DNA of 64,000 nucleotides, from NCBI GenBank assembly GCA_030549335.1, contig JAUKPH010000017.1, forward strand, positions 14,469,501 to 14,533,500, given 5' to 3'. This DNA is from Pontederia crassipes (Eukaryota; Streptophyta; Magnoliopsida; Commelinales; Pontederiaceae). Each line of letters begins with the position of its first letter. Position 1 is the first letter of the stretch. The position numbers and the translations under genes were made by a program. Positions 23,368 to 61,234 of this stretch are shown piece after piece. The notes beneath the pieces were generated by a model. It searched no databases. It had not been told where the DNA came from and saw nothing but the letters and a program-made list of their open reading frames with translations.

Positions 23368-23555
23368 CTTCTTTTTGATAAATTTTTTCATAATTATAGA
23401 ACCTCTTTTTGATCATGTTCTCATAAATTTTACTAAGAATGCACTTCGACATTCTTTGTGATAAAATGAGATTATGATTCGATGATGAAGTACTTGAAAC
23501 ATGTGATTTTGGACTTCGTAAGTTCAAAATCACACATTTCAAGTACACGAATTTA

Positions 23556-26201
23556 TTGACATATGGCTTAATGTTGTCCGTTACAAAAATGATAAAGCCA
23601 GATCATAGTTGGAATTTTCGTTGGAAGGATAAACCTGGCGTCATAACTGAAGAATATAAGGATGGTATTGATGAATTCATTAATGTGGCATATCAAAATG
23701 AATGTGTTGCTTCTTCATATGGCAAAATCTTATGTCCATGCCGGAAGTGCAAATGTTATCAGTAAGATATGATGTGCAGGAAGATTTATATTACAACGGT
23801 TTCTTACTGACATACACAAATTGATTCTTTCATGACGAAAAAAGATGGGTTAAATAAACAACTAATGTATATACCGTTGTGGGCGACTCGAGCACTCCGT
23901 ACAGGGACATGATATGAGATGCAATGTTAGGAGAAAATGTTGGCGAAACATTGATTGAAAAAGATCCGAATCCTTCGGCTTCTAAGTTTTATAATCTTCT
24001 CGAAGAAACAAATGAACCTTTATGGGATGGATGCATGAAGCAAACTACACTTTCTGCAGTGGCACAACTAATAAATTTGAAATCAGAATTTAATATGAGC
24101 GAACGTTATTTTGATCAGATGCTTGCCATTATTAAGAGTATGCTTCCAGCTTCAAAGAAATTATCGGGACATTTTTACAAGTGCAAACGGACGATGAGAG
24201 ATTTAGGGTCGAAATATCAGAAGATTGATGCATGTCGCAATCATTGCATGTTGTACTACAAGGAAAACAACTCACTTATGACTTGTTCTATTTATGGCGA
24301 GCCCAGATTCAAGCCGAAAAAGAATTCTTAAAGTTAAAAAAAATGTGACAAATGTAATATTTAGATACTTTCTGATTGTTCCAAGATTACAAGACTATTT
24401 CTTTCTGAAAAATCTGCATCATTTATCAGGTGGCACAGAAAAGGGGCACGTGATGATCAAAATTCAATTACACATTCTTCAGATGCTGAGGCATGGAAAC
24501 GATTTGATGTACTTCATCTGACTTTTTTTGCAGAATCACGCAATGTTAGATTAGGAGTTTGCACCGATGGCTTCAACCCATTTGGCTCATCAAGTACTGC
24601 TTATTCATGTTGGCCAGTTGTTGTGACACCTTATAATTTACCTCCAAGCATGTGTATGAGACGAGAGAATATATTACTTACCTGTATGATCTCAGGTCCT
24701 TGATCTCTTGATAAAAGTTTAGATGTTTACTTAAGACCTTTGATTGATGAACTTAACATATTGTGGGAGGATGGCGTGATTACTTATGACAAATCTAAAA
24801 AGTAAAATTTTCATTATGAGAGTCGCATTAATATTGACCATAAGTGATTTTTTGACATATAGAATGTTGAGTGATTGGAGACAAAAGGTAAACTTGCTTG
24901 TCCCATATGTGAAAAGAATACAAAATTATTTTATTTGAAAAATTGTAGGAAAGTTTACTGATTTGATTGTCATAGATGTTTTTGCCATTGGAGAATTCGA
25001 TGCGTCGTGATCGAAACTCATTTAAAAAGAATACATCTGAGAATACTTTGTCTTCAACTCATTTGACGGGACAAGAATTGTTCGAGCAAGTAAACAAGCT
25101 TAGTGAAGTCTCATTCGGACTAAAGACCGGTAGTTACAAGCAAATTGGGTTTGGAAGTGAACATAATTTGAAGAAAAGAAGTATTTTTGGGAGTTGCCTT
25201 ATTGGTCTTCAAACTTAGTACGTCATAACTTGGACGTCATGCATGTGAAGAAGAACGTATTTGACAACATATTCAATACTATTATGAATGTTAAAGGAAG
25301 AATAAAAGATAACATACAGACAGAGAGAACAAAATACGAGATCTCGGTCATGGCTCGAAAAAATAAGTTCTTAGCTATTGCGATGTCATAGTCAACGGAT
25401 ATCGGTTCCATACAGAAGAATATAGCCGACAACATTCAATTATTAATAACTTAGTCATAGCGAATAAAATACTGCTCAGTCATAAAGAACAAAATACGAG
25501 ATCTCGGTCATGGCCCGAAGAAATAAGTTCTTAGCTACTGCATCATAGTCAATGGATATCAGTTCCATACAGAAGAATATAGCCAACAACGTTCAACTAT
25601 TTGGGATATCGATTATAGGAAGCATGTACGAGGACAACGACTTTGATTACTATGGTGTTATAGAAGACATCCTAGAATTGTCTTATTTGAGAAAATCTAA
25701 CAAAGTCGTGGTGCTAAAATATCGTTGGTTCGATCCAGAGAAAGGAGTTCGGATCGATCAAAAGTTTAATTGGTGGATATTAACCCTTGGTCGAGACTTT
25801 AGTCATACGATCCATTCGTATTGGCGGAACAAGCACAACAAGTGTACTACACTAAGTATCCATAAAAAAGAACCAATGATGAATGGTGTGCGTCATGCAA
25901 GATGAGGAGTAGACTATTCTTAGCAGAAATAATGGTAGATGACAATGAAACATCATCCGTACACAACGATGTGCCCATGAATGATTACTATCAAGAAAAT
26001 AGAGTGAATGAGACGATTGATGTGGCCGATGGAGTTGAGAATTTTCAATTGGTCGATGATGCTGAGCCAATGGAAGAGTTCAATTCAAACGACCTCTTGG
26101 AAGTGAACTTTGATAATTTCATTGACGATGACTCGAACCAAGATTATAGCGACGATGATGAAGATGATGAAAATGAATCAGAATACGAAACAAGCGAATA
26201 A
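23556..26201 (+). pseudogene. CACTA TNP2-type transposase, decayed
   Basis: TNP2 is the DNA-cutting transposase of CACTA elements. The pieces appear in family order. First is a transposase-associated domain at 23580-23762 (WNFRWKDKPGV, then a cysteine cluster CPCRKCKC). Next is a segment at 23924-24330 with KIDACRNHCMLYYKEN, and 24500-24790 with FAESRNVRLGVCTDGFNPFG and CWPVVVTPYNLPP. Then come 25180-25320 with NLDVMHVKKNVFDNIFNT and a DUF4216-like segment at 25552-25830 (VVLKYRWFDPEKGV). An acidic tail follows at 25902-26201, rich in Asp/Glu. Many stops and frameshifts separate the parts, and a piece around 25390-25560 is locally duplicated. The protein cannot be made as one chain. Confidence 0.92.
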
Positions 26202-29847: not shown

Positions 29848-31571
29848 CACTACTAGAAAATTATCATTTTTCGACGAAAAATTTTTGACGGACAGAAATC
29901 CGTCACAATTTGTGACGAAAATATTTACGACGGATTTTTCATGGAAATGAAAATAATAAATCATGTATATTTTATTTTTCAACGATTAAGAACGTCGATA
30001 TTTTCGACGGATATCCATCTGTCGTAATTTCCGACGGATTTTTCGACGGCTACGACCGTCAAAAATGAAATAATAAATTATATAACTTATTATTTTATTT
30101 TTTGACGATTAGGCACGTCGATATTTCCGACGGATTTTGCGACGGTTACGGCCATCGAAAATAAAAAATAAATTATGTAAATTTTTATATTATTATTTAA
30201 TTTTTTGACGATTAGGAACGTCGATATTTTCGACGGATATCCATCCGTCGCAAAATCTGCCATAATTTTTTACGGTCGTAACCATTGATAAATGCATAAT
30301 AATATAATATGAGAAGTATTTTATTAATATAATTAGTGACAGTACAAACCGTCGTAATTTTTGACGATTCCGACTATCAATAATAATTAATGACTATTCA
30401 AACCGTTGGTAAAATAAAAAATAAATATTATATATAACTACATATAGTATTTTATTTTTATAATTAAATAATTTTCAACGGTCACAATCGTCGGTAACTT
30501 TAAAAATAATTAATATTTACTTTTTCGACGGCCAGAGCTGTCGGTAATTAAAATTTCGTTATCTCACTTTTTTTTCGTTTTTCTGCTTTCTCATCTTTCC
30601 ACCTATATATATATATATATAATACTCCCTTTTTTTCCCTCTTCTCCTCTCTCCCTCCTGTCCTCTCTCTCTCTCCCTCTCCCTCTCCCGACCTGCGAGC
30701 CTCTGACCGGACGTCAAGCGTTGATCGCCGACGACCCTCTTCCGCCGGCGACCCTCTCCCGCCGGCATCTCTCTCTAGATCGGTCGCCGGCGTCTCTCTC
30801 TCCGGCCCGGACCGCCAGGCGGCCGAATCTCGCCGCTGGATCGGCTGCTAGCGGCCGAATCTGCCGGATCCAGCCTCGAGCGGCCGGATTCGGCCGTGGG
30901 CGGTCCGGATCGGCCAGCTCGGTCGCCTAGCGGCCAGATCTAGTCGTAGGTGGTCGGATCCAATCGCGGGCTGCCGTATCGGTCGCCTGGCGGCTGGATC
31001 CAGCCGCATGGGCAGGATTCGGCAGCTGGCGGCCGGATCCAGTCGCATGCGGCCGGCAAGCCGCTCGGTCGTTAGACCACTGGCGACCAGATCTCGGCCG
31101 CTGGCCTTCAGATTTGGCCGCCAGCCGGCTAATTTTTTATATTATAAAAATTCGTTGCGACGGTTTCGACAGCCGAAACTTCGGCGGTCGCCCGACGACC
31201 GCCGAAATTTTTGGCGATAGCAACCATCAATATTTGCGACGGTCGACGAAATCGTCGAAAACTTCGGCGGTCACGACCGCCAGGAACATCAAAGTTTTCG
31301 ACGGTTTCGTCGACTGTCGCAAATATCGACGGTCACGATCGCCAATTTTTTGACAGTTTCATCGACCGCCGTAAATATCAGCGATCGTGATCGTCAAAAA
31401 TTCGTCGAAATTTCCGATGGTTCTTTCCCAACCGTCGCAAATCAATTTGCAACGACCCTTTTTCGGACGAATGGGTTCCGTAGAAAAAACTGTCAGAAAC
31501 GTCGTTTTCGACAGTTTTGGGGGGAATTACAAACGGTCCAAACCGTCTCTAATTCCCCTTTTCTTGTAGTG
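29848..31571. mobile_element. CACTA non-autonomous element, TCGACGG subfamily
   Basis: The left terminus CACTACTAGAAAA starts at 29848 and the right terminus TTTTCTTGTAGTG ends at 31571. A perfect 3-bp target duplication, AAT, lies at 29845-29847 and 31572-31574. Subterminal arrays of TTCGACGG/CCGTCGAAA units run from 29870 to 30540 and from 31140 to 31540. The middle has a pyrimidine tract and a GC-rich repeat. No transposase is present. Its arrays match those of the large element at 52997-59770, the likely source of transposase in trans. Confidence 0.95.
30800..31130. repeat. Degenerate ~30-bp GC-rich minisatellite
   Basis: Imperfect units built on 'cggccggatc.agccg' and 'ggcggtcggatc' repeat through this stretch. 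They give Arg/Ala/Gly-rich frames on both strands; these are not supported as genes. Confidence 0.75.
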
Positions 31572-31710
31572 AATTACATAAATTATTCTTCAACTTTGAT
31601 TTATACCAAGTACTTTAACTTTATTTTATGACTACATTATCTTTTAAAATTTGAAATCTTGCACATGATATCCTCTGTACTGCTGGTAGTAGATTTTTTT
31701 ATTGCACTAT

Positions 31711-32176
31711 TGTTGGATAATGCCCACGTGGGGCATGCGCGGATTGCGCAACGCACGCGCGGGCCGCGCGGTGCGCGCACGGACCGCGCTGTCGCACGCA
31801 CGAAGTGTGCGACACGCATGCTGACGACGCAGTCGTGCACACGGACTGTGCGCGGACCGTGTTGTCGTACAGAGATCGCTCAGATCACGCGATTTGATAT
31901 TTGCGCCATGAGAAAAGAGGTTTGCGAAGATACGTCATCACGCGCGATGGTCGTGCATGATACGTTCTGCCTAACTTCTTATTCAAGTCTTCCTACCCTA
32001 TAAAAGGGGACCCATATCATAGGTCCCAAATATACTTTCGCAGAAGTTCATCCAGAAGAACTTGTGCTGTGGCAAAGAGTTCTGTTCTCCTGAGGTTCAG
32101 TTCCCGATCCCGAGGTGTAAGTGCGTTTGTCAAGAGTTCATGAAAAAGTCTCGACGATCCGCTTCCACTGCAAGAG
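31711..32176 (+). repeat. 5' LTR of the copia element, 3' end missing
   Basis: It aligns with the 3' LTR from TGTTGGATAA to 'gcaagag' at 32176, then diverges. The last ~44 bp seen in the 3' LTR (42359-42402) are absent, and no primer-binding site complementary to initiator tRNA-Met follows. A TATAAAA lies at 31999-32005. Confidence 0.88.
31999..32005 (+). promoter_or_regulatory. 5' LTR TATA box
   Basis: TATAAAA followed by GGGGACCC. The same motif recurs in the 3' LTR near 42180-42186, as expected for the retrotransposon core promoter. Confidence 0.7.
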
Positions 32177-36486: not shown

Positions 36487-36943
36487 AAAGTTGAGAAAGA
36501 AGATTTCATGTATTTGACTTGGAGTCGATCTCAGTTGAATAAAACTTCAAAGTTCTGAGAAACTAGACAATCTGTCTGACATGCATAATTGGTTTCAAAT
36601 TTTTCTACCTTTTGGTTTTTAAGTATTTTGTTTTGGTTTTATGTAAACTGTAGAAGAGACACAAGATTTTGTTTTGGTTTCAAGTTCTCTTTTGGTTTTG
36701 TTTTGGTTTCAAATTTTGTTTTGTTTTGGTTTTATGTTTTAACTCCGCCTATATTTTAAACCCCGCCTATATTTTATAGCCGGTCCCAAGCCCGGATAAA
36801 GGAGGAGGGTTGTGTTAGGCCCCGACAGCCAGCATAAAATCATGTCGAATCTTATGAACATGGATCAACGAATAGCGGAATGGCGTCGTATGATCCATGT
36901 AGCCGACCCTACCTAGTGGGATAAGGCTTTGTTGTTGTTGTTG
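36487..36943 (+). mobile_element. Retroposon (SINE or truncated LINE) with RTE-type 3' tail
   Basis: A 15-bp target duplication, TATTATGCTACTAAC, lies at 36472-36486 and 36944-36958. The 3' end carries 'cctagtgggataaggctttg' and a (TTG)n tail, the same tail as the LINE copies at 221-765 and 57990-58291. The body is different: it contains 'cggataaaggaggagggttg' and no reverse-transcriptase frame. It is nested in the solo LTR. Confidence 0.9.
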
Positions 36944-40870: not shown

Positions 40871-41856
40871 AACGCAATAATGTACTCAAATTTTTAATGA
40901 ATAAAATATTATTTTTCTTTCATAAATTTATTGTTGTAAATTCTTATTATGCATGTGAAAAGTATGACGATCGGGCCTAGATTTGTTCACTCACACGAAC
41001 AAATATTTCCGGCGTTCACGAAGATAGTGAGCGGAATGAATTATGTGAGTCATAGTGTAATTATTAAAACATGTGTTTTAGTAACTCAATGTCGCCTGAT
41101 TAAAAGAGAGAGACCAGATACGAGATTCAAATTTGGCGCTACTGGATAGTGAGCAATTTGAAAACTCGAGTCAGGCGCTGAAAGTTAGCGATTGGACTTA
41201 AGTCTGTGCAGTATGTAATTAAACAGAGCCGGACATATGCTCCTTCAGTGGGAGTCTCCACCGCAGTACTTGTGTTTGGTACCAAGTATGCAAAGTTGAC
41301 CTAGAGAGATATGATGAATTGATTAATTCGATGGTCATCATGGTGTGAGTCTCTGACGGATGATTCATGTGCACGTGCCCTTAGACTCTTGATTATGTCT
41401 TAAGGAAAGAAATTAGTGATTGTTACTTTAGCGGGGTACTCAAAGTTGAAAAGCAAAGTAGCTTGTCGAGCCATGTCTAGAAAAACAACTAATTTACTAA
41501 TAAAAAATATGAGGGCGAGAGAAAGAACTGTTATGAGCTGCATTAAGCTTTCACATATAATTGACCAACTATTTTTTAAAATAGTGTATGTGAAAGACAG
41601 TTACCGCAGAGCAAGACATACATTGTATTGGCTATGCTGCAAGACAGAACTAAGGCATAACAAGTTACATTATTTGAGTATTTATTGACTCATATGTGAG
41701 CTATCATGAATCCCTAATGGGCATGACGTGATTGAACCTTAACAGGTATCTTTCTAGCTTCTATAAAGAAGCGTGCTTGTACTCGTGGGTCGCACGGTAC
41801 ATTTACCAACTCTGGCTAAATGAAAGTACAATGTCCAATGCGGACAAGTGAAAGAT
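40871..41856 (+). other. Copia 3' untranslated region and polypurine tract
   Basis: About 1 kb of non-coding sequence between RNase H and the 3' LTR. The purine-rich stretch aagtgaaaga at about 41846-41855, next to the LTR start, is the likely plus-strand primer. Confidence 0.65.
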
Positions 41857-42402
41857 TGTTGGATAATGCCCACATGGGGCAACGCACAGTGACATGTGCG
41901 GACCGCGTGCAACGCACACACGGGCCGCGTGATGCGCGCACGGACCGTGCTACAAGCGTGCGGACCACGCTGTCGCATGCATGGAGTGCGCGACGCGCAT
42001 GCTGACGGCGCAGTCGTGCACATGGACCACGCGCGGACCGTGTTGTCGCATAGAGATCGCGCATATCACGCGATTTGATATTTGCACCGTGAGAAAAGAG
42101 ATTTGCGTAGACACATCATCACGCGCGATGGACGCGCGTGATACGTTCTGCCTAACTTCTTATCTAAGTCTTCCTACACTATAAAAGGGGACCCATACTA
42201 TAGGTCCCAAATATACTTTCGCAAATGTTTGTCCAGAAGTATTTGTGCTGTGGCAAAGAGTTCTGTTCCCCTGAGGTTCATTTTCTGATCACGAGGTGTA
42301 AGTGTGTTCGTCAAAAGTTCGTGAAAAAACTCCGACAATCCGCTTTCGCTGTAAGAGGTATTCCGTAATCTCTAGAATTTATATCTGTTATAAATTTCAA
42401 CA
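41857..42402 (+). repeat. 3' LTR of the copia element
   Basis: 546 bp, TGTTGGATAA to CAACA. It is homologous to 31711-32176 apart from its last ~44 bp, and is followed by the target duplication ACTAT. A TATAAAA lies near 42180-42186. Confidence 0.93.
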
Positions 42403-43800: not shown

Positions 43801-45341
43801 AATTGAACCAGTGAATATGATTTTTCTTTTCACAGATCTAGTCGTTCGGTTTTCACTGTCAAATACAAACTACTTTTCATGCCATGTTTTTCAAGTGAGG
43901 AAAAACATAAAAATAAAAATATGAAAAGAAATCAAATAATTTTTTTTGGTGCTCAAGAATTTTGCAATTCATATCGTTGGCATGTGCACACTAGAACTTT
44001 AGACACTCTACCACACCTGTGTTCTTCCCTTTTGTGCTTAATAATATATAAGATCTATTATACAAATGTTAATCATAACCAAGAGCGATTAATAAATAGG
44101 CTTCTTCACTATTAAAGTTACTAAATAATATCCAATGGATACACTTTAAAAACATGCGTTTGTCATTCCAAAATATTTATGCATTCGACTGTGACTAATA
44201 ATTTGACATCCATCGGTGCCTGCAAAAAAAATATTCTTTTGAGAAGAACACCTGTAAAATATATGTAAATTATGAGTGTCATATACGTAAGGGTTTGCTC
44301 CGTTTGTCCTTCGTTATCTATTAGGAGTCATACTACTTTGTCTCTGTTATGCCAACGACATGGCCGGGGCTTACAAAAAAAAATAGCTCAAGATCTTGGC
44401 CGCAGGCGGTCGTGGCCTGTTGGCAGCACTCGCGTTCGTCCTTAACACAAATCCTTCTGGGGGTTACAGAGCACGGGTCAACCCCGTGACATGATCCTTG
44501 CATAATTTATACAGCCAGGACCATTGCCACCACCACCTCGTGCAGCTGCTGTACACAGGTGCTCATTTGTCTTCACACTTTGGCGTTAGAAACATGCTAT
44601 CAACTTTTACCGAGAAAAGAAACATATTAAAACCTTTCTTTGGCGATGCACCAATCGGGGACACGGTGCGCACACAGTCCAATGCCGGAATTGATTAAAA
44701 ACCTTCCAAGTTCCAGCGGAGCCTTGACATGTGGAGTTCAGAGATCACCCGCCATGAACATGTTTTCGAGGGATGTCTGTGGAATGCCAGTAAAAAAATA
44801 AGATTCAACTTGCTTCTTAGTATCTGTTGTCGTGAGAGTAAATCAATAATATATTCAAAGATGCTCATCATTACAGAGAAATAGACTGGAAGATGCAAAT
44901 GGAAGGATGACAACAGTCAATGCAGAAAAAAAAGAAAATGAAAGATAACAAAAATGTAAAGATGATGAACAGCTAAGATCTTTCTATTCCAATGACATTG
45001 TTGATGTACATGCAGTAGAAATCAACAAAAAGAGTAACTGCCCGCATCCCAGCCGCCTCTCATGCTTCCGTACTCCTTTCTAACTCACCGTTCTATACAA
45101 GGATCAACTATTATTTTGAGCAAAAAACAGTATAAATAGAAGTTATCATATCAAAGTGTATGTTCCACAGCTGCCTGAATAAAAAGGTTGCAATGCGTAG
45201 AGTTCTTATTTCCATCATCCTCCGGAGCAAAATGTCCACCTTGTATGTCCAATGCGGACGTTTTCGATTAAAAATGACTTCCCCATCACTGGATTTTGAT
45301 CTCTCATATTTCTGAAAGAATTGCAATGTGGAACTAGTAAC
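43801..45341. other. Region 3' of the O-fucosyltransferase gene
   Basis: No coding domain was recognised. The part next to 45341 is the presumed 3' UTR of the minus-strand gene; no clear poly(A) signal was fixed. A GC-richer patch at 44340-44560 was inspected for a tRNA or an exon and gave neither. Confidence 0.45.
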
Positions 45342-48300
45342 TTAAAACTGAGTTTGCATATTCCGTGAATCGTCCTCCAAGCGTTGCTGGAGGCACTCCT
45401 GGGGATTGGCAAAGAAGTAGTCCTCTTCCTTGGGCCTATCAGGGATCACCAATCTCCTCACAGGCTTTCCCATGCGAGTAGCATGAGCGATCTTAACCGA
45501 TGAAGAGAATTCCTCCCACCCTAAAATTCCATCGTTGTACTGATCTATTAGCTCAACCAAGTGTTTCCTGTCCAATAAGATGGTCTTCTTGAACCCCAAG
45601 TACCTGAAAATATACATCACAAAAGTATCCACTTAAATGCATGTTAATGAGGAAATGAGATGAACGAAAATTTAGTTTTTAATTAACAAAAAAAAAAAAA
45701 CTCAGTTGCTGCTACATTGGAGTGCTCAGTTGTAAATTTGGTCCTAAAGGCACTCATAAACGGATAAAACCAGTGTAAATTTGTAACCATAAGCATGTTG
45801 TAAATACTACAAAACTTAAGAGATGAAACAGTGGTAGAATGGAAGAGGCGACAAACCTGCGATGACCTTCGACAACTTTGGCCATGTTGCCATCATAAGT
45901 AGGAATGAAGATATCGCTCTCCAGAGAAACCAAGTAATCCAATGCTGCCATTTGTGATGAATGATTCTGGAAGTATCTAAGATCTGATGGTCTTAATAAT
46001 GTTTCCTTTCTTACCTGCAAGATGTCTGAGCAATTAGTCAAGGATAAGGGAGACAAAAAGAGATTGCAAACTCGAGAATACACAAACAATTCAAGAACTG
46101 ACCACATTTGGAAACGCAGTAGAAAGTGCAGCCATTCTCTTTTGCCCGCCATATATTTCTCCAGCTGCAATATAGATTTGGATGTTGCGGTCAATGTCCA
46201 AAGCCCTCAAAATCAAAGCTGTCTCCTCTGGAGTCAAAGGACAGAGACCATCTTTCCTCTTGAGGTCAGAATCGATGACCTTTTCTTTCCACCAAGGATA
46301 TGCATATCTATGACATAATTATCAAGCAATTCAGGATATATAGAGTTTGCTTCTTTCTGAATTCAGTCATAGAGAGAAGATAATAGCAGTAGGCAACATA
46401 ATGGATGTAAATATCTGATGTACCTCATTCTTGTCAGTTCCTCAGCCTCCTCATTTGTGCAACCATGAGTGCATCCAGAGAAGGCCAACATGTCCATTTC
46501 ATATCTCAAATGAAGAACCACAAAAGGACCATTCTGTCTCAAAATTCTAACTACTCGCCTACCCAATTCTTCAATCTGAGGGGCGAATCGCAATGCTGCA
46601 TAATTTGCTCGGCACCTCAATTTTTGGATTTCTAAAGGTAGACCATTATTAGCTAGCCTGGCATCAGTTTTATTCAGATGCAAAATCTTGTATTTCTGGA
46701 TCAAGGGAAGAATCTGGTTTCCACAAACAAATTGACTGAGTATCACAAATAACATATTCTGGTAACAACATTTGTTTTCCTGCTTTTCTACTATAAATAC
46801 CTGATTTTGGTAATATGAGATGTGTGACCAACTAATAGGTGGCATAGAGTGCACAAGGCCCAGCTCAACTCTTTTTTTCAGCCTAGGTGGTAGTTCTTTC
46901 AATATTCGAACCTCATCTCGTAATGATGTAATAAAATGGTCGACATCAAATATGTCTTGGAACTCGCTGTTATAAATCAAAATAATGTTTAATTTTAACT
47001 GAAAGGAAGAAAAATAAATGGCATTGCAATTATAAAGGAATAGACCAATCTAAAACAATAAATTGAGAGTTAACACACCTTGGATCAGCCCAAAATGATG
47101 TCTTATCTAACTCTGGCACAATTAATGTCACGTTCAAATACCTCGCAATGGCAACCATGTCACATATCTGTAGATCGTGATGATAATACAAAAATTAATA
47201 AAAGCAAAGTGTAGATATTACATATTTGATAAAACACTTAAACACGAAAAAAACTCTCAGAACTGATAAAACAAAATGATCTTAAATTTGTGAGTGTAAC
47301 TATATTAAAATACTGACTGCAGCTCGCATCTGATTAAGCCCGCCATTGCATGAAACCATGAGGTACCCGTTATTCCTATAGATTCCTACATGAAAACAAG
47401 ATCCAGATCAGAATACATACCAACATCCGAGGAAAGACCACAACAAATTTACAGAATTTTTGTGGCACAGACTTAGGAGGAACTATTAGATATTACTAGA
47501 CATTTGATAGTGATAGGAATTTAAGACAAAGACAGGAAACAGCATGCAGAAACTTTGCTTAGAATCGATCTGACATGGTTAGGAAAGTAGAAGACTATGG
47601 TTTAACATTCAATGTATATACAAAGAAATAAAATTGGACTACCAGTGAGATGGAAGCAAAAAACAGGGGACGAAGTTGTGCAGAGTCAAAGGTAAAAAGG
47701 ACAACTGGAAGCATTCAATGTTTATAAAGTTGTGCTGCACCCTTAGAAAGGAATAGAGAGCCACAACATAATTATCACCATAAGCTCTAATCAATTATTT
47801 AAAAAGTAACACCCAATCAAGCATAAACACATTTTTATGAACAATCCTTAATCGACAAACTTATAGAGAGCATCCTCAAAATATGTAAGAGACCAGTTTT
47901 TAGTATATAAAGAAGGGCAATGAAGTCTGATGAGAAAAAACAAGTACATTTAGTCTCAACATAAAGACTAATTCAATTAAAAAAAAAGCTGCATCTCGAA
48001 GAACATATATAGTTTTATCAGAATTGGCCCTTTTTGATTCCCAAGGGGGAAATATTCGTTTCCCAAGGGGGAAATCTTCTTCCAAAAGTTTAAACCATTG
48101 ATCAAATCATACACAAACGCAAAGAGAAAATTGAAGAATATCCAATCACACGATGAAGAAAAGCAAGAGAAAGTTGTAACCTTTTTACTTGTTCCATATT
48201 TTATCTTGTTTAAAAGGGGCGGAAGTTGACTCACTTTTGGGTGGGAGGACGATCCTTTGGACAACCGGAGAAACTTCTTCCACGGCGGCGAGTTCTCCAA

Positions 48301-48577
48301 TGGCGTGCTGTGCCGACGAGTCCGAGGAGGTGAAGCAGGAGGGCCAACCTTTCAGGACCCTCGGCCCCCACATGTCCCCGATGGCCGTGAGCTGGACGAC
48401 GCACGTCCACAGGAGAACTGTCGTCGTCGCCCGGATCATCCACAGCTTCATCCTCGACCTGGCCACCATCGAAGCCTTCGTCCTCTCGCTCTTCGCCTCT
48501 CCTCCGGCGCCAAATTTAAGACCGATGCGCTTCTCCTCCAAGTACTCAGATCCCATGGACCTCCCCAATCGGCACAT
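45342..48577 (-). CDS. O-fucosyltransferase family protein, 8 exons, one apparent frameshift
   Basis: Plant O-fucosyltransferase-like proteins are Golgi type II membrane glycosyltransferases that use GDP-fucose; the acceptor here is unknown. Exons on the minus strand: 48577-48235, 47385-47318, 47167-47079, 46966-46801, 46713-46424, 46308-46103, 46014-45857 and 45603-45342, all with GT-AG introns and consistent phases. The start at 48577 (MCRLGRS) is my choice; an in-frame ATG lies 21 bp downstream. About 526 residues are expected, normal for the family. Residues 46-66 form a membrane anchor. NGGLNQMR (128-135) and HLRYEMDM (290-297) are family GDP-fucose-binding-type motifs; [10 protein letters not shown] (404-413) and TYDGNMA (426-432) follow. 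In exon 6 an extra base in an AAA run at 46260-46262 shifts the frame and gives a stop at 46191-46193. Downstream exons stay well conserved, so a recent lesion or an assembly error is likely. Confidence 0.93.
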
Positions 48578-49250
48578 CCTCTGATACCAGCAAGTTCCAG
48601 CCCCCATACAAAACAAGAAGAACTCCAAAGATATCCAGGAGCCGAAAGCGAAAAAAAAAAAACAAACTTGTCTTTGGTTCTCTTCGCCTACAAACCAATG
48701 AAAAACATAGAAACAAAGAAAAGAACTGATTTTGACGACAATGCAGCTTGCCACAGAAAATCGAAACCCAAAGGACGTTCGATTCCTTAGCAAAAAACCG
48801 GTCTCTCTTCCTCCCCAGAAACTATCACAACAACACAAAGTGTTCAGGTGCCAGAGAGATGGATTTTTTTCTTCCCGCACTTTCTCTATTTATCTCAATC
48901 GAAAGCAGACAAGCCATTACTGCAGACAGCTAATTTCCTTCCATAAAAAGCTCTGAAGGGTGGGGAATAAAAGATTTACAAAAGGGGAAGGAGCGCCGGA
49001 AAAACGCAGCGCTTGGGCGGACTCGAGATCCAAGGGGACGCCCTCGGAGCAGTTCAGGCAATGGGCTTCTGCGGCGAGATCAGCGCCCCGCGTCCGTGGT
49101 CCGCAAGCGGTGGAGGGAGAGACGGAGGAGGAGAGAAGGATGGATTTCTCAGACCTTCCCTTCGGTCTCTTTACCATTTTAATCCCAACAAAAATGACGC
49201 AAAAAAAGAAACAAAAACAAACAAAATAAAAACAAAATTGTAGCCGTCGC
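48578..49250 (-). other. 5' UTR and promoter region of the O-fucosyltransferase gene
   Basis: The region upstream of the start codon stays open in frame to 48880 but encodes an implausible Cys/Phe-rich extension, so I treat it as leader. A GC-richer part at 48955-49170 could be the first untranslated portion or promoter. No TATA box was fixed. Confidence 0.45.
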
Positions 49251-52800: not shown

Positions 52801-53019
52801 TGTATATGAAATTATATTTATATTCTAAATTAAAATAGGGACACTAAATTAATGTGCCTTAAAATTTTTAAAAAATAGGACTCTAAATATATTTGTGTCA
52901 TAATGACAATGCTATAAAAAGTGTCTTTATAAATGAACACTTTGCATCAAATAAGAACGCTTTAATCTATGTCATTAATCGAATGTCAGCCAATGACACT
53001 ACAAGAAAAAGTCAGATTT

Positions 53020-53640
53020 TCGACGGTTTATTTTCAACGGTCCGACATCCGTCGAAAATACCGACGGTTTTCCGGCGGAGCTTATAAACCGTCGAAATTA
53101 TTGTCGGGAGTTTTTCGACGGTTCTGGCCGTCTAAACTTTCGACGGTCCAGAATTCGTCGAAAGCTTCCGTCGAAAATATTGGCACTTCGACGGTTCCGA
53201 CCGTCGAAAGTTTCGACGGTTTACCTACCCGTTGAAACTTCCAGCGGTCTGAACCGTCGAAATATTTTAACGTTGGTCCCGTACTATTATTTTAATTTTC
53301 GACGGTTTTGACCGTCGAAATTTGTGACGTTCGACGCAACCGTCGATATTTCGGCGGTCATACCCGTCGAAACGTTATGAGATTTTCATTCAGTAAAATA
53401 TTCTAGCTTTATTTTTTTTACGGTCTTAACCGTCGAAAATGGAAATTTATAATTTACGCAACTCTGTTCAGTTGGAAAATTAATATTATATATATCGACG
53501 GCTAAAACCGTCGATAGTTTCGACGGTTTAGAGAACCGTCGAAATGTTCGATGGTTTTTCCAACGGGTTCGAGCCGTCGAAACTTGAATTAATATTATAT
53601 TATATTTACCCATGTTGCGACGGTTACGACCGTCAGAAGT
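53020..53640. repeat. Left subterminal TCGACGG array
   Basis: More than twenty units of TCGACGG/CCGTCGA in both orientations lie next to the left terminus. Such arrays are the binding sites of the CACTA regulatory protein. Confidence 0.88.
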
Positions 53641-53959
53641 GGCTATATAAATACACGACCCCACTCTCACTTTGTTCATTTTCGATCCCCCTTATTTCAT
53701 CGTCCGCATTTCGTCCGGCCGCCGTTTCGTCCACATTTCGTCCGGCCGTCGGCCACCTCCCGCGTGTGCATTGACTTCCGTCGCCGCCGCCCGAAGCTTC
53801 CGCCGCCGACTGCAATCTCCGGTGCAGGTACCTCCCATCCCCGCCCTCCTTGCTCTCTCCGGCGGCCGGATCCGGCAGCCGCATTTGAATGTATGATAAT
53901 TTCATTTGAATGTATGATCTTCCCGTGCTAATAGTGAAGTAGTGAAGCATTTGTTTCTA

Positions 53960-55295
53960 GTGGATCACACACAAACTGTCTACTGATGACTTGAGTTTCA
54001 TCGTGTTTATATTCATTATCATCTTTTTGGGCTGTAGTTTGTCTCTGCCTTTCCTTCTTGAAAGATACTTAATCTGTACCTCTTTCATAAGAGTTAAGCT
54101 TGCTTGAAGTTCCATTTTCCATTTACTTTTATTTTTTTTCTTTTGAGCATACAGGTCATTTACAGTTATTAAGTAGATTCTTCTGTAAATGAACTTTGAC
54201 ATCAACAAATAGTTCAGTTGATTGGCACATTCGGTGTTTTTTTCATTGTGATCATTTACTAGGGGAAAGGGAAAGGATTAACAGAACGATAACCAAAACT
54301 GAGACAACCAACAAAAGTTTCAAATTTTCAATTTATATCATAAGCTAGGTCTTACCTTGAAGAAGGATGAGCAAGGGTCCCGAATCCAATCTTAGCATAG
54401 GTAGTCTGCACAATGAAAATAATATACATAATTACTGTTGGATTATCTGATAAACATAATGAATTATTTTTATTTGAAGCATTAACATAAATTCCATATT
54501 TGTTTTGGATTTCACAAGTGGTAACAGCTTTATGAATTTTATACAAACTAGTAAAGTTTTTGCTGTCGAGAATGAAGGATTTCTTAACAAAGAGCATCCA
54601 GCAAGCAATTGCTTTTTACTCATCATAAATTTACTAGTGATTTATCAATGAAGGATTTCAATGAAGCATAGTGATTTATCAATATGTATCAATCTGAAAT
54701 GATAAACAATTTGAAAATAATTTGTGAAAAATCTTTCCTCCATCCTTTGTTTTACAGCTTCAAGTGTCCCTTTTACAGCCATTACATTTCTAAATCGTCC
54801 GTTCTCTTTTTTTCCTCTCATTTTCAACCAACTGATTCAAAAGAGTAAATATACACAATTGCAATAGATGTCCATTTCTGTGGCAATATTTTTTTTAGAT
54901 CAAGATACCATGTAAGCTTATAGAATTCACTTTTAATTTTACATATTCTATACACAGAATGAGCAATATTCTAGTTACATATTCTAGTGTCGTATTGACA
55001 AAAAAAAATGGTAAGAGTAATATTCCTTTGATGCATTACTACAGAATAATAGTTATCAATCTGTTCTTCCTCAAGTCATGCAGAATTTATTAATGGTAAT
55101 GTGGTCATTCAGGTTAACTATATATTGCATGTCTGGTTGTGTTCTAATAATTAGGATAAATTGTAGGTCAGCAGTACACCTGTTGAGCATTGCTCCTCCA
55201 ACAGTACTGATAATACAATTCATGACTGTTGTTTCATAAACCTTATTTCTTTCCTTATACAATTTTCTATCACTGAAATTTTTGATGATTTGCAA
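53960..55295 (-). other. Minus-strand exon-like pieces within the CACTA element
   Basis: Several minus-strand open pieces are bordered by plausible splice signals. One runs from an acceptor 'cattgtgcag' near 54412 through AKIGFGTLAHPSSR to a donor 'gtaaga' near 54356. Others are at 54645-54827 (GTLEAVKQRMEERFF), 55071-55295 and 53957-54208 (Lys-rich). They lie opposite the transposase strand, so they may be a captured host-gene fragment. No family was recognised. Confidence 0.3.
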
Positions 55296-55309
55296 ATAAT
55301 GCAGTCATT

Positions 55310-55756
55310 ATGTCATACTTGAACGATCGTCGATGGATGTACAATAGAAATAATCCTGGTCGTAGAGACTTGACACAAGAATTCATAGATGACGTTGACT
55401 ATTATATTAATGTGGCTTGTCAATCTTTACAATATCAGCGGGAGGGAACAATTAGGTGTCATTGTTTGAAATGTGCTAGCACAAAGTTACAGACGATAGA
55501 GACTCAAAGTTCACTTATATAGAAAGGGTTTCAAACCCAATTATTGACAATGTGATGATTTAGGCGAAGGAGCGCCTTCGACAAGCGTCCCAAATCCAGG
55601 TCTTCATTTTGTCGATCCTGAACCAATATTTGCTTCGCAATATGAACAGTTAGTTTATGAGGCAGCTGCAATTGAGTATGGCAATATTAGATTTGAGCAG
55701 AATGAAGAGGCACCAAATCCATAAGCAAGAGATTTTTATGACTTACTAAACGCATA
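55310..55756 (+). pseudogene. CACTA TNP2 transposase, N-terminal part
   Basis: Starting after an acceptor-like 'aatgcag' near 55305, the frame MSYLNDRRWMYNRNN continues through FIDDVDYYINVACQ to a cysteine pair region CHCLKC, the transposase-associated domain. A stop at about 55520 and frameshifts follow. The usual ARDFYDLLNA segment appears at about 55725-55756. The transposase then breaks off at the viral segment. The corresponding region of the sister element at 23556-24500 continues for several hundred bases that are missing here. Confidence 0.9.
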
Positions 55757-55763
55757 GCTCAGA

Positions 55764-55943
55764 GGAGTTCTCACGCGAAGGAAGCCTTTATCAAAGGAAG
55801 ACGTCGAGATACTAGTCCTCAGGATATCGGAGCAACCAAAGATCATCGAACAACAGACTGAGGCACTCGTCAAAGAGCTAACTTCAAAAGTCAGCAAAGT
55901 TGAGATCCTGATCCATAGACTGGAGGAGGCTCTCCTATCTTAA
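55764..55943 (+). pseudogene. Badnavirus-like ORF1 C-terminal part
   Basis: The frame has no start of its own and enters from the junction. It reads SKEDVEILVLRISEQPKIIE and then a heptad-like helix ending LIHRLEEALLS before TAA. The 'EQPK' segment followed by a coiled coil matches the badnavirus ORF1 (DUF1319-type) C-terminus as I know it. The N-terminal part of ORF1 is missing. Function of the viral protein is poorly defined. Confidence 0.65.
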
Positions 55944-56357
55944 ATGAGTCTTGCCAATTCAAAGGCAAGCACAACATATATAGAAGCACTACGCGCCACC
56001 AAACAAGATTGGGACAACGCTACCGGATTTACTGAGAAATCAGATAATCCAAATATCGCGTCCCTAACAAGGCAACTCAACTCTATCATCTTCTTATTAA
56101 TCCGTTGTGATACAAAGTTGCTGACCTTGGAAGAAAGAATCCTACAGATAGAAACAAGGGTCAAGAACATTGAAGCAGCCAAAGCAGCCCCTGCAATCGG
56201 AGCTTTCAGAAGCGAGCTTGAAGCACTCACACTAAAGCTCGGCAGCCTCAAATTATCTACAAAGGAGGCCGGAGGCAACCTAAAGGTCATCAGAAATCCT
56301 TACAACATCCTCAGATCAGCCAAAGATGGCCACGAGGGGAAGCATACTAGGAACTAA
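55944..56357 (+). CDS. Badnavirus-like ORF2 (virion-associated protein type), open frame in relic
   Basis: The frame of 137 codons is uninterrupted from ATG directly after the ORF1 stop. It contains a long predicted coiled coil in the middle (LLTLEERILQIETRVKNIE), then an Ala-rich linker. A basic end follows (SAKDGHEGKHTRN). Badnavirus ORF2 proteins are short virion-associated proteins with a coiled coil and a basic, nucleic-acid-binding end, so the architecture fits. It overlaps the following ORF3-type frame. With no viral promoter or rest of the genome present, it is probably not expressed as part of a virus. The intact frame suggests a younger insertion than the surrounding transposase decay, or chance. 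Confidence 0.6.
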   Translation: MSLANSKASTTYIEALRATKQDWDNATGFTEKSDNPNIASLTRQLNSIIFLLIRCDTKLLTLEERILQIETRVKNIEAAKAAPAIGAFRSELEALTLKLGSLKLSTKEAGGNLKVIRNPYNILRSAKDGHEGKHTRN

Positions 56358-56904
56358 TGAATCCAGTACCATCACAGAACCAGGAAGCTCTCTAGTCGAA
56401 GACCAAGTCAGAGACTACAGAAGGACTCAAAGAGCCAGGTATGAAGCCACAAGAGTTGCCAGAAACATAGGCAACATAGGAAGGACAATTGTTGGAAGGC
56501 AACCAAGGGAGCACACCCTGGCCCTCCTGATGAACCCGGAGACCGAGCTCCAGAGATCCATGCAGGAAAGAGCTCGAACAGTACCTGCAGAAGTACTATA
56601 TATGACAAGGCATGATGACATCCATCATCGGGTGTACCATCACCGATCGGAAGAAAGAATGTTGATCCTTAGAAACAGCCAACAAGATAGGACATGGAAA
56701 CATTTTGATCGTAAGCATCCTGATTTTGCTAGGAAAGAAAGGAACATAAGGCTCGGATTATGCGTGGATGGTTTTACACCATATGGTCATACTTCAGTTT
56801 CTTATTCATGTTGGCCGGTCATAATAACGCCTTATAATTTACCACTTGGGATTTGTATGTCCGCACCTTATATGTTTTTTACATGCATTATTCTTGGTCC
56901 TTAG
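56326..56904 (+). pseudogene. Chimeric frame: badnavirus-like ORF3 start fused to TNP2
   Basis: Residues 1 to about 121 resemble the start of a badnavirus polyprotein: an acidic and Ser/Thr-rich opening, EDQVRDYRRTQRARYEA, and further on VPAEVLYMTR and HHRVYHHRSEERM. From about residue 124 the frame is TNP2 transposase (WKHFDRKHPDFARK, then LCVDGFTPYGHTS and CWPVIITPYNLP). The two parts join without a stop, giving 192 codons. The viral domains that follow in a polyprotein are absent. Whether this frame is ever translated is unknown. Confidence 0.7.
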
Positions 56905-57260
56905 AGTCCTAAACAGATGATAGACGTGTATTTACAGCTTCTAATAGACGAGCTGAAAGAACTGTGGGATGGTGTCGTCGCTTATGATGTGTCGACCAAA
57001 TAAAATTTTACATTGAAAGCTGCATTATTGTGGACCATTAATGACTTTCCTACCTACGGGATGTTGTCTGGTTGGATGACCGCATGGAAATTAGCTTATC
57101 CATGTTGCATGGAACACTCAGATGCGTTCACTTTGAGAAATGAGGGTAAAAATAGTTAGTTTGATTGTCATAGACGGTTAGACCACCTACTCACGACGAA
57201 ATTTTTCTCCGAACTTATCAGAAAAAGAACAAAGAATGGGTTTCGGATTATGCCCGGGAG
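56690..57260 (+). pseudogene. CACTA TNP2 transposase, central part
   Basis: The transposase resumes at WKHFDRKHPDFA. It continues past a stop at about 56902 as MIDVYLQLLIDELKELW, then INDFPTYGMLSGWMT and CHRRLDHLL to about 57260. The central catalytic region is incomplete and carries several stops. Confidence 0.88.
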
Positions 57261-57365
57261 ACATATGTATGTAATTTTTTGTGCCTTTATTTTTTTCATC
57301 TGCGCAAGTTAATAGTTAATTAATAAAACTTTGAAGTCGATCACCTACTTGTCGTTTATAGTTAA

Positions 57366-57830
57366 TTGTTTTTGCCGGTTCTTTATATTTTCTTTATATT
57401 TCAGGAGTCTTATAAAACAAAAGAAGTTGATCATATTACGCAAGCCACGCAGGAGGGGACCACACCATTGACCCCAAGACAACTTTGGACGGACCACGTC
57501 GGCATGAAGAAGGGTCGCACTTACGGCATCGGATCTTCTGTGAGTGACACAGATATTGGATATTGTCGATGAACTACTTCAGGTTCATCTCCTTCTGGTA
57601 TGCAAGAAATTGTGGATCAGGTGACCATGAAGATTAGGGAAGATGTTAGAAAGGAATTCGAAGAACGTGAACATCGTAACAGGACTGAAATGAAGAAAAT
57701 GATGCGTGCCTTCATGCGTGGCGAATTGAACGACGATGATGCCGAGGTAGATTCATTATACTTATTTTTTTTTGGAATTTGCTTTAATCAAGTAGATTCA
57801 TTATACTCATTAGATTCATATGCACTTTGA
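57366..57830 (+). pseudogene. TNPA-like (Ptta/En/Spm) C-terminal remnant
   Basis: Two frames in succession hold the family landmarks: an exon at 57405-57572 with TQATQEGTTPLTPRQLW, and 57600-57740 with a charged helix KIREDVRKEFEEREH. This is the usual C-terminal part of plant CACTA regulatory proteins, placed after TNP2. Confidence 0.7.
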
Positions 57831-57989
57831 CATCAACATGGGTACTAACTTAGATTTTACTCTTCATCCCTTTCAGTTAGATCTGTAGAGTTTCAAAATT
57901 TTCACCGAAAATGGAGTGCAGACAGTTGGATCATGTAAATGTCAGTACTCAGTATAAATAAATATACTTGCAGTTTATAACCATGGTAA

Positions 57990-58291
57990 CAACAACAACA
58001 AAGCCTTATCCCACTAGGTGGGGTCGGCTACATGTATCATACGACGCCATTCCGCTCTATTAGTAACCAAACCTTTCGGTATATTATTCACCAATAGATC
58101 TTGCTCTATTAGTTCGCCAAGTGTCCGCCTTGGCCTCCCTCTCCCTCTTTTAATCGAACTCTAGATTATTTGATCTACTCTTCTTACTGGCGCATCTAAT
58201 GGTCTTCTCTGAATATGACCAAACCATCTCAAATGATTCTCTACCAATTTCTCACAAATAGGAGCCACTATGACTCGTTCACGTATATGGC
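57990..58291 (-). mobile_element. 5'-truncated RTE-like LINE with 16-bp target duplication
   Basis: The same family and orientation as 221-765, differing at only a few positions over the shared ~300 bp. It has an AAC-repeat tail and a perfect 16-bp direct repeat, TTTATAACCATGGTAA, at 57974-57989 and 58292-58307. It was inserted into the CACTA element after that element arrived. Confidence 0.95.
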
Positions 58292-58439
58292 TTTATAACC
58301 ATGGTAAATATAAAAAAAATTTACTTGCTGCATAAATATACTTGTAGTTTATGTTTCCTATTTTTTCTTGATTGGCCATGAACTTCAACATGATATGAGG
58401 CAACATATTATGAGCTTAATCAGCTACCTAATTTAGTAC

Positions 58440-58725
58440 CTTCACAAAGGCTTGATGGTTTTCGCGTTCTATATCTAAGAAGTCCGCGAACTCATCACTA
58501 GTTCTGTAATTACCGACGTGTTCATCGGCATTTTTGATCTTCCGGCATAGTTCTTCGTCTAAGAAAAAAGCTCAAAATTAATTCACCATGTTGTACATGC
58601 TGACTCATAATTATAAACACAATATATGATCCACCTCACTTTGGTCTGTTTCCAGTCTTTCATGAACTCTGCAGACATTCCTTCTAAAGCAATCGGTCGC
58701 CCAACGACGAAGTAGTGAAGGGTGA
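58440..58725 (-). other. Exon-like minus-strand pieces in CACTA element
   Basis: Two adjacent minus-strand pieces look coding. One, about 58720-58640, reads RPIALEGMSAEFMKDWKQTK. The other, about 58560-58435, reads DEELCRKIKNADEHVGNYR and continues FADFLDIERENHQAFVK. Composition and charge pattern are protein-like and an AT-rich, intron-like gap separates them. The family was not recognised. It may be a captured host-gene fragment. Confidence 0.35.
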
Positions 58726-59159
58726 ATCCTATGTTTTTATATTTTATTTACATTATCTCTCTATATATATGCACTTTAGATTTTACTCTTCATTAGATTT
58801 CAAATCCGAATTCATGTTATAACTTTCTGAAATCTCTATTGTGCAGTGATGTTCGAGTTGTTTTGCGATGTTTGGAATGGCTCATAACTTCAGCTCTTCC
58901 TATCTTCATCGTGACGTTTCGAATGGCTTCACCAAGACTTCAATTTGTTTGGAATGGCTTTGAATTATGTGATGTTTCGATAGTTACATTTTGTTGGATT
59001 ATGTGATGTTTGGATTTTGTGATGTTTGATCTATTTCATGTTTGGATAGTATCTGTGATGTGAATTATCTGTGATGGTTTGGAAATGGTGTGAATTATAT
59101 GTGTTGTATTATCTGTTCGGACATTTAAAATTCAGCATTTTTTTAATTTTTTTTGTCTC

Positions 59160-59740
59160 CGACGGTCCTGACTGTCGGAAATAGTTGAAATATTGCAATG
59201 TTGGCAACGGATTTTTTCAATACTTACCGACGGTTATAACCATCCGTACAGCATTATCGACGGTCGTAACCGTCGGAAATTAAATGTGGAGTCGATGGAT
59301 AAAACCGTCAACCCAAGTTTGTCGACGGTTTAAACCATCGATACTATCGACGGTTGAAGCTGCCGATATATATCGACGGTCAAAACCGTCGATAGTATCG
59401 ACGGTTGAAGCCGCCGATAGATATCGACGGCAGGAACCGTCGATAGTATCGACGGTTCAAACCGCCGATAAATATCGACGGCATGAACCGTCGATACTAT
59501 CGACGGTTTTGACCATCGATATATATCGGCGGTCCAAACCGTCGATATTATCGACGGTACGTCGATACTCAACGTTCGACGGCCGCGCCCGCCAGCTAGA
59601 CCGTCTGTAATATCGACGGTTCAGAAAAAATCATCGCAAATTGTATGCGACGACCTTTTTTCACACGGACATTATCCGTCGAAAGAACCGTCGGAAAATG
59701 CTATTTCCGACGGATCTGGCCATTTTTCCGACGGTTCGGA
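59160..59740. repeat. Right subterminal TCGACGG array
   Basis: Regularly spaced TATCGACGGTT/AACCGTCGATA units in both orientations run up to the right CACTA terminus. Frames here (59284-59610, 59330-59572) are translations of the repeat. Confidence 0.9.
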
Positions 59741-59774
59741 CCGTTTGTAATAGGCAATTTTCTTGTAGTGTGAA

Positions 59775-61030
59775 CGATAGTTAATAGGACTCTACGGCAT
59801 AGGAGGGCCATTCCATGTTGGATGTGGAACAAGGTTGGATGGAGCGCTGGTTGGAGAAGTCCATGGAGGTGAGCACGGTAAGGAAATAAATTGTGGATTA
59901 GAAGAACTTACATGAGTTGGTGAGTGTAGCCAAGTGGTGAGAACAGCTAACCAAGGTGTTGGAGGAAAAATTGTCAAGAGAATGACTAGCAAGAGTGTGG
60001 AACGAGAGGTATGGGAAGAAAGACTCATAGAATGTAGCATAACATTGAGTAAAAATGCAACCGGATGAGAGATCAAGGCATTGATATTCATGATATCCCG
60101 AAGGAAATTATAAGGACAAAGAAAAGAAAGGCAACACAATTGAACACCTCAAGGAAATTATAATTTGGCAAGCATTTATATAAGGTCTGATAAGGTGAGA
60201 GATTTGAGAGAACGTTGGCAAACGATTGATCAAGTATTGCAAAAAATGATGAGGAACAAACAAGTGAACCATAAGTGTGAGAACAATTTCAATAATGTGA
60301 CAAATTATGTGTTAGACAAATCCATTTTGTTCACGAGTCTGCGCACATGACTTGCGATGGTAAATCCCATTGTTGTTAAAAAAAAGAGGTTAAGACTTGG
60401 TATTCACCTCCATTTGATAGGAAGGAAATTATTTTAGTATGAAATTGATGATCAACCATTTTACTAGAATGCATGAAACAAGAGAAGACATCAAACTTCC
60501 ATTTTATTGAATACAACCAAGTGAATTTAGAAAAAAGTCATCTAGGAAAAACGCAAACCAAATCACTATGAATGACAACAAAAGGAGAGGGAACATGAGT
60601 GAGAGTTTGAGGCAAAGGTGATTTCGTAGCTTTACCAAGCTTGCATGCTTCACAAACTATTGATGCTAAGTCCGCTGGACCAAGATTGAGAGATTGAAAA
60701 AGATGGTTAAGAACTCGATTGTGCAAATGCTCAAGGTGAGCATACTAATGGCGAGAGATGGAACAAGCAAATGTAGTTGATTAAGGTTGGAAGGACAACT
60801 TGGAGCAAAGATGGTAAAAATCATATGTAGTTTTGTCACGAAGAACCACCTTATAGCTGACTCGATCCTTGACAACAAAATGATCATAATGAAATTCAAA
60901 GAAGAACTTATTATCATGAGTGAATTGTCTAACAGAAAGTAAAGATTTAGATATAGCAAGAACATGGAGAATGTTATAAAATTGAAGAGGAGGAGATGTA
61001 GATATGGCTGAATGGTTAGTAGCCATGACT
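59775..61030 (-). pseudogene. Ty1-copia pol fragment (protease end, integrase, linker)
   Basis: On the minus strand from 61026 the order is the protease-integrase linker (NILHVLAISKSLLSVRQ), the pre-integrase zinc region near 60726-60600 (HLFQSLNLG, CEACKLGK), the core opening VIHSDLVC, and a later core segment near 60400 (SNGGEYQ). The integrase-RT linker follows at 60139-59792. Frame breaks are frequent and no LTR was found. The fragment abuts the right side of the CACTA element, but its other half is not left of that element. Confidence 0.85.
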
Positions 61031-61234
61031 CGAAGAAGAGGAAGAATGTGAGTTTTTCATTGAATTCAATGAGCTATGTAATTAGGTATAAATTTGTCCT
61101 TATGTCATGATTTTTGTGTGAATCCATTCCATGACTCGAAGAAGAGGAAGAACGTGAGTTTTTCACTGAATTCAATGAGCTATGTAATTAGGTATAAATT
61201 TGTCTTTATGTCATGATTTTTGTGTGAATCCATT
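61023..61234. repeat. 106-bp tandem duplication
   Basis: Two nearly identical copies, 61023-61128 and 61129-61234, start at 'ccatgactcgaagaagagga'. The few differences point to a recent duplication. Confidence 0.95.

Follow-up and report, generated by a model that had tools for sequence, protein, structure and literature searches.

The window analysed in this study, a stretch of 64,000 nucleotides of Pontederia crassipes DNA, contains a CACTA (En/Spm-type) DNA transposon in which part of the transposase gene is replaced by DNA of badnaviral type (Table 1). The terminal repeats of the element match at 13 of 13 bp, and a 3-bp duplication, TGA, is found on both flanks. As these repeats and the duplication are intact, the element has transposed as a unit at some time. 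A TNP2 transposase, as is typical of CACTA (En/Spm) elements, was recognized by Pfam family PF02992 at 3.2e-25 in the open frame and at 1.3e-56 when the stops were translated as X. The gene is disabled by a frameshift at about 55508, by 2 stops to the left of the badnaviral insert and by 3 stops to its right. Between the frameshift and the insert, 15 residues align at 60% to a second TNP2 gene present in the window (E 0.006), which is a short match.

Table 1. Features of the CACTA element and of the badnaviral segment inside it (positions refer to the window)
Feature	Position	Strand	Evidence or remark
Left target-site duplication, TGA	52994..52996		sequence
CACTA (En/Spm-type) DNA transposon, transposase disabled	52997..59770, 6774 bp	+	CACTACAAGAAAA at 52997, complement ending at 59770; TNP2 domains inside
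Left terminal inverted repeat, 13 bp	52997..53009	+	followed by CGACGG-type subterminal repeats to about 53600
Transposase-associated domain, N-terminal part of TNP2	55310..55507	+	Pfam PF13963 (Transpos_assoc), 3.3e-8 in 55289-55519
TNP2 middle part, past the frameshift, 2 in-frame stops, last residues FYDLLNA	55509..55754	+	translation
Badnaviral segment replacing about 0.49 kb of TNP2	55755..56694, ~0.94 kb	+	Pfam, protein similarity, base composition
Badnavirus ORF1, C-terminal part, 61 codons, stop 55941-55943	55758..55940	+	Pfam DUF1319 (PF07028), 3e-13, profile positions 63-109 of 109
Badnavirus ORF2, open over 137 codons up to its stop	55944..56357	+	57-60% identity to ORF2 of Canna yellow mottle (associated) virus
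N-terminus of badnavirus ORF3, open over 123 codons, in the same frame as TNP2	56326..56694	+	similarity to proteins P0127 and P0128
TNP2 catalytic part from WKHFD on, 3 in-frame stops	56695..57177	+	Pfam Transposase_21; 64% to protein P0144
Repeat copy, presumably LINE-like	57988..58290		96% copy at 227-529 of the window
Right terminal inverted repeat, 13 bp	59758..59770	-	preceded by subterminal repeats from about 59150
Right target-site duplication, TGA	59771..59773		sequence

Genes and repeats in the surroundings of the element

The other TNP2 gene of the window is located at 23478-26201, with TNP2 at 23.5-25 kb. It is diverged and carries stops of its own. The identity of 49% over 78 residues of the catalytic part indicates that it belongs to a different CACTA family, and a search of the window with its middle stretch found no other match at E 1e-3. 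A second CACTA-type element of ~1.7 kb (29848-31571) has the ends CACTACTAGAAAA and TTTTCTTGTAGTG, AAT on both flanks and similar subterminal repeats, and looks non-autonomous.

Other repeats were also represented. Two direct copies of ~0.5 kb at 31709-32176 and 41855-42357 are 81% identical and enclose coding pieces which we take to be copia-like; they probably belong to an old LTR retrotransposon. Copies of a further repeat, in our assignment LINE-like, are 96-97% identical and were found at 227-529, 36874-36942 and 57988-58290, the last of these within the badnavirus-bearing CACTA element. At 61023-61234, two 106-bp copies that are 97% identical are arranged head-to-tail. The minus strand encodes, at about 45000-49000, an O-fucosyltransferase of the rhamnogalacturonan I rhamnosyltransferase type. 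This gene, which was pieced together by eye, matches monocot proteins at about 77-86% among the matches listed. In a tree of 39 rows chosen from 120 matches listed, it forms its own branch next to the Zingiberales entries (Canna, Musa, Curcuma; support 95/95). By this one gene, the host would probably be placed among the commelinid monocots, in Zingiberales or close to them.

Identity of the badnaviral segment

By its sequence, the stretch from 55755 to 56694 represents a single uninterrupted part of a badnavirus genome, which takes in the end of ORF1, a complete ORF2 and the first ~123 residues of ORF3. In ORF1 only the C-terminal end of the DUF1319 profile is covered, and the first part of the frame is absent from the segment; we take this family to be the badnavirus ORF1 family. 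ORF2 begins directly after the ORF1 stop. It gave no Pfam family above the cut-off, and its assignment is derived from protein homology. From 34 candidates, 6 relatives were retained at E <= 10, which are 47-60% identical with a best E of 1.7e-38. Three of these six are named as Canna yellow mottle (associated) virus (57-60%) and one as Banana streak MY virus (47%). When all are aligned together, the ORF2 of the window is 48-62% identical to the six relatives. In a midpoint-rooted ORF2 tree of 7 rows it joins the Canna virus set, while Banana streak MY virus stands outside this group (100/99).

The start of ORF3 shares 86 of 119 residues with P0127 (72% over 119 aa) and 68 of 109 residues with P0128 (62% over 109 aa). 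In badnaviruses, the movement-protein domain of ORF3 comes after the N-terminus. P0128 carries this domain (Pfam MP, PF01107, at 2.3e-5) and P0127 is without a Pfam match; the domain itself is absent from the window. Both proteins may be of viral or of endogenous origin. DUF1319 in ORF1, the homology of ORF2, and an ORF3 start from upstream of the movement-protein domain mark the segment as badnavirus-derived. The plant transposon on both of its flanks and the plant O-fucosyltransferase gene in the same window point to an integration in plant nuclear DNA.

The badnaviral identity claimed in the original prediction is thus supported for all three frames. A protein-profile search against Caulimoviridae families had been proposed there as a check, with a lack of similarity as the refuting outcome; such similarity was present. 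The proposed three consecutive frames on one strand were recovered as well: their order and spacing are viral, and no stops occur inside the 61, 137, and 123 codons. One correction concerns the overlap between ORF2 and ORF3. It amounts to 32 nt, which is more than the length of the best relative implies, because ORF2 extends about ten codons past the end of this relative. The proposed span of 55757..56690 was correct in place and is corrected to 55755-56694 in its limits.

Further searches did not extend the family assignment. ORF2 and ORF3 parts, used singly and as alignments, gave no confirmed relative in IMG/VR, NCBIfam resulted in matches only far below its cut-offs, and Rfam gave nothing at its gathering thresholds. 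The species level in badnaviruses is set by the identity of the reverse transcriptase/RNase H region; the reverse transcriptase region is absent from the segment.

Junctions and origin of the segment

On the left, TNP2 can be followed through 55754 (FYDLLNA), and on the right it is found again from 56695 (WKHFD). The right junction is fixed to within a few bases, since the similarity to P0127 stops at 56697 and the TNP2 similarity of the right flank starts at 56695. The left junction carries a TAG at 55755-55757, which may belong to the virus, to TNP2, or to the junction itself. Because the DUF1319 match obtained with X at stops starts at this TAG, it may be a lesion of the viral frame. Base composition alone gave a best-contrast segment of 55695-56694 with a gain of 38.2, compared to a maximum of 8.8 in 20 base shuffles on a coarser grid. 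No target-site duplication was evident at the two viral junctions when read by eye.

As proposed in the original prediction, the segment is located between two parts of TNP2, Transpos_assoc on the left (3.3e-8) and Transposase_21 on the right (PF02992, 3.2e-25 in 56668-56901, the profile match reaching nine residues into the viral part). A viral relic inside a CACTA transposase gene is supported, and both ends of the element and its target-site duplication are intact. The term embedded applies to the location inside TNP2, but not in the sense of a plain insertion, since about 0.49 kb of TNP2 is missing as judged against the other TNP2 gene of the window: between FYDLL and WKHFD, that gene has 492 nt (24002-24493) versus 946 nt (55749-56694) here. 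The possibility that the segment is a normal part of unrelated TNP2 genes, which had been named as a refutation, was rejected. Among 34 relatives of the fusion ORF, 32 match TNP2 only, 2 the virus only, and none both parts, in a database from which the host's own proteins may be absent; moreover, the other TNP2 gene of the window has ordinary sequence at this place.

Two further observations at the right junction were set aside. Several tblastn matches of TNP2 proteins extend into the viral part (starts at 56377, 56488, 56569, 56596 and later). These extensions were judged to be due to chance, because none of the proteins matches the viral part alone at E 1e-3. From the ATG at 56326, a single open frame of 192 codons (within 56326-56901) reads through the viral ORF3 start into TNP2. 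We do not regard it as a new protein: orientation and frame agree by chance in 1 of 6 cases, and the frame ends at a stop inside TNP2.

The badnaviral DNA is likely to be filler from the repair of a break or gap in the transposase exon, with a dead fossil as the result. A double-strand break, or a gap left by incomplete repair, would have occurred in the exon of the CACTA transposase. When it was sealed, about 0.49 kb of TNP2 would have been lost and about 0.94 kb of viral DNA taken up as filler, either through end joining or because the repair switched template to viral DNA present in the nucleus. The donor may have been an infecting virus or an older endogenous copy. CACTA elements undergo internal deletions through incomplete gap repair; hence the break may stem from excision of the element itself. 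The loss of TNP2 sequence together with one unrearranged viral piece fits the capture of filler DNA at break repair. We infer the repair mechanism, the source, and the single event of loss plus gain, the last of these from a single locus; viral DNA that entered at the site of an earlier deletion would leave the same picture.

Filler DNA at double-strand-break repair is one of two widely held hypotheses for the origin of endogenous caulimovirids, as stated in the excerpted text of PMC10377300. The same excerpt describes these sequences as frequently located near transposable elements and their insertions as often flanked by TA-dinucleotide repeats. Such repeats are missing here, with no run of at least 12 nt in the element and none of at least 8 nt in 55300-57200, which counts against the filler explanation.

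A variant of the filler explanation, compatible with it, assumes that the donor was a badnavirus copy already endogenous at another place in the host genome, from which the segment was copied by template switching at gap repair. We consider this donor possible, if rather unlikely. According to an excerpt of PMC7814968, many plant genomes hold badnaviral sequences, and one unrearranged copy in sense orientation fits either source. However, none of the three frames is interrupted inside, which would be expected if selection was acting on the donor at the time or had been until recently. In the window, a tblastn search with six viral proteins, which cover ORF2 and the start of ORF3, gave no further match, and DUF1319 at the segment was the sole viral family in six-frame Pfam scans of 50.0-59.0 and 59.1-64.0 kb.

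Alternatively, the CACTA element may have taken up the viral DNA at another site and transposed here together with it, mobilized in trans by a working relative. Judging from the sequence, the ends look able to be mobilized in this way, the intact 13/13-bp repeats and the TGA duplication are in line with such a move, and CACTA elements can carry captured sequence, as described for Pack-CACTA elements in the excerpt of PMC13317346. Nevertheless, this order of events appears improbable. Intact ends do not date the last move to before or after the insert, and none of the 34 relatives of the fusion ORF combines both parts, although the host's own proteins may be missing from the database. Lesion counts may lean slightly to a late entry of the virus. 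Had the two parts decayed in parallel, both virus and transposase should carry lesions, whereas 5 stops and 1 frameshift were found in 310 codons of TNP2 and none inside 321 codons of the viral frames. With the junction TAG left out, the chance of all lesions falling in TNP2 is 0.014 by length and, for stops weighted by codon opportunity, 0.059; with the TAG counted as a viral lesion, these values are 0.057 and 0.19. The weighting assumes a transition weight of 4:1. With chances between 0.014 and 0.19, depending on the assignment of the TAG and on the weighting, these counts do not fix the time order.

Spread of viral DNA by the transposon, as inferred in the original prediction, is no more than a possibility: a single copy is known, and its transposase is disabled. 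It is more doubtful still that a non-autonomous CACTA lineage with badnaviral cargo multiplied in the host genome, perhaps as a source of virus-matching small RNAs. An assembly artefact in which viral reads were joined to the transposon is very improbable, since the TNP2 flanks continue in register on either side of a deletion that is plausible, and the element around the segment is otherwise coherent, even though an ORF2 identity of 57-60% to named viruses would also fit an undescribed infecting virus.

Relation to known systems

The closest named viruses are Canna yellow mottle virus and Canna yellow mottle associated virus (Badnavirus, Caulimoviridae), whose ORF2 is 57-60% identical over 91-93% of the query. 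In contrast to these viruses, the locus described here holds just 0.94 kb, lies within a plant transposon, and is without the reverse transcriptase region. Endogenous caulimovirid and badnavirus sequences resemble the segment in being incomplete badnaviral DNA that lies in plant DNA close to transposable elements, and an origin as filler DNA has been proposed for them (excerpt of PMC10377300). The segment found in our study differs from them in its site: it replaces part of a coding exon in a DNA transposon, and both ends of this transposon are intact. Badnaviral DNA inserted in a gene is also described for eggplant R1a in the available portion of PMC8346255; there, a host resistance gene is affected, whereas here it is a transposase gene. 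With Pack-CACTA elements, as far as the excerpt of PMC13317346 describes them, the locus shares foreign sequence between CACTA ends, but here viral DNA forms the cargo, and it has taken the place of a stretch of transposase.

As an endogenous badnavirus fragment, the segment is of a known kind; what is unusual is its site, a coding exon within a DNA transposon whose two ends are intact. A literature search on CACTA elements with badnavirus, judged by title or start of abstract, and mixed searches, judged by title, found no such case among the papers listed, which is no proof of absence.

The element provides a clean case of pararetroviral DNA within a mobile DNA element. The locus offers a way to ask if endogenous caulimovirids enter through the repair of breaks, and if DNA transposons ever carry them onward. 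If a CACTA lineage with badnaviral cargo did multiply, a DNA transposon would be a vehicle for endogenous pararetrovirus sequence. Furthermore, the segment extends the fossil record of the commelinid monocots by a badnavirus lineage close to the Canna yellow mottle viruses.
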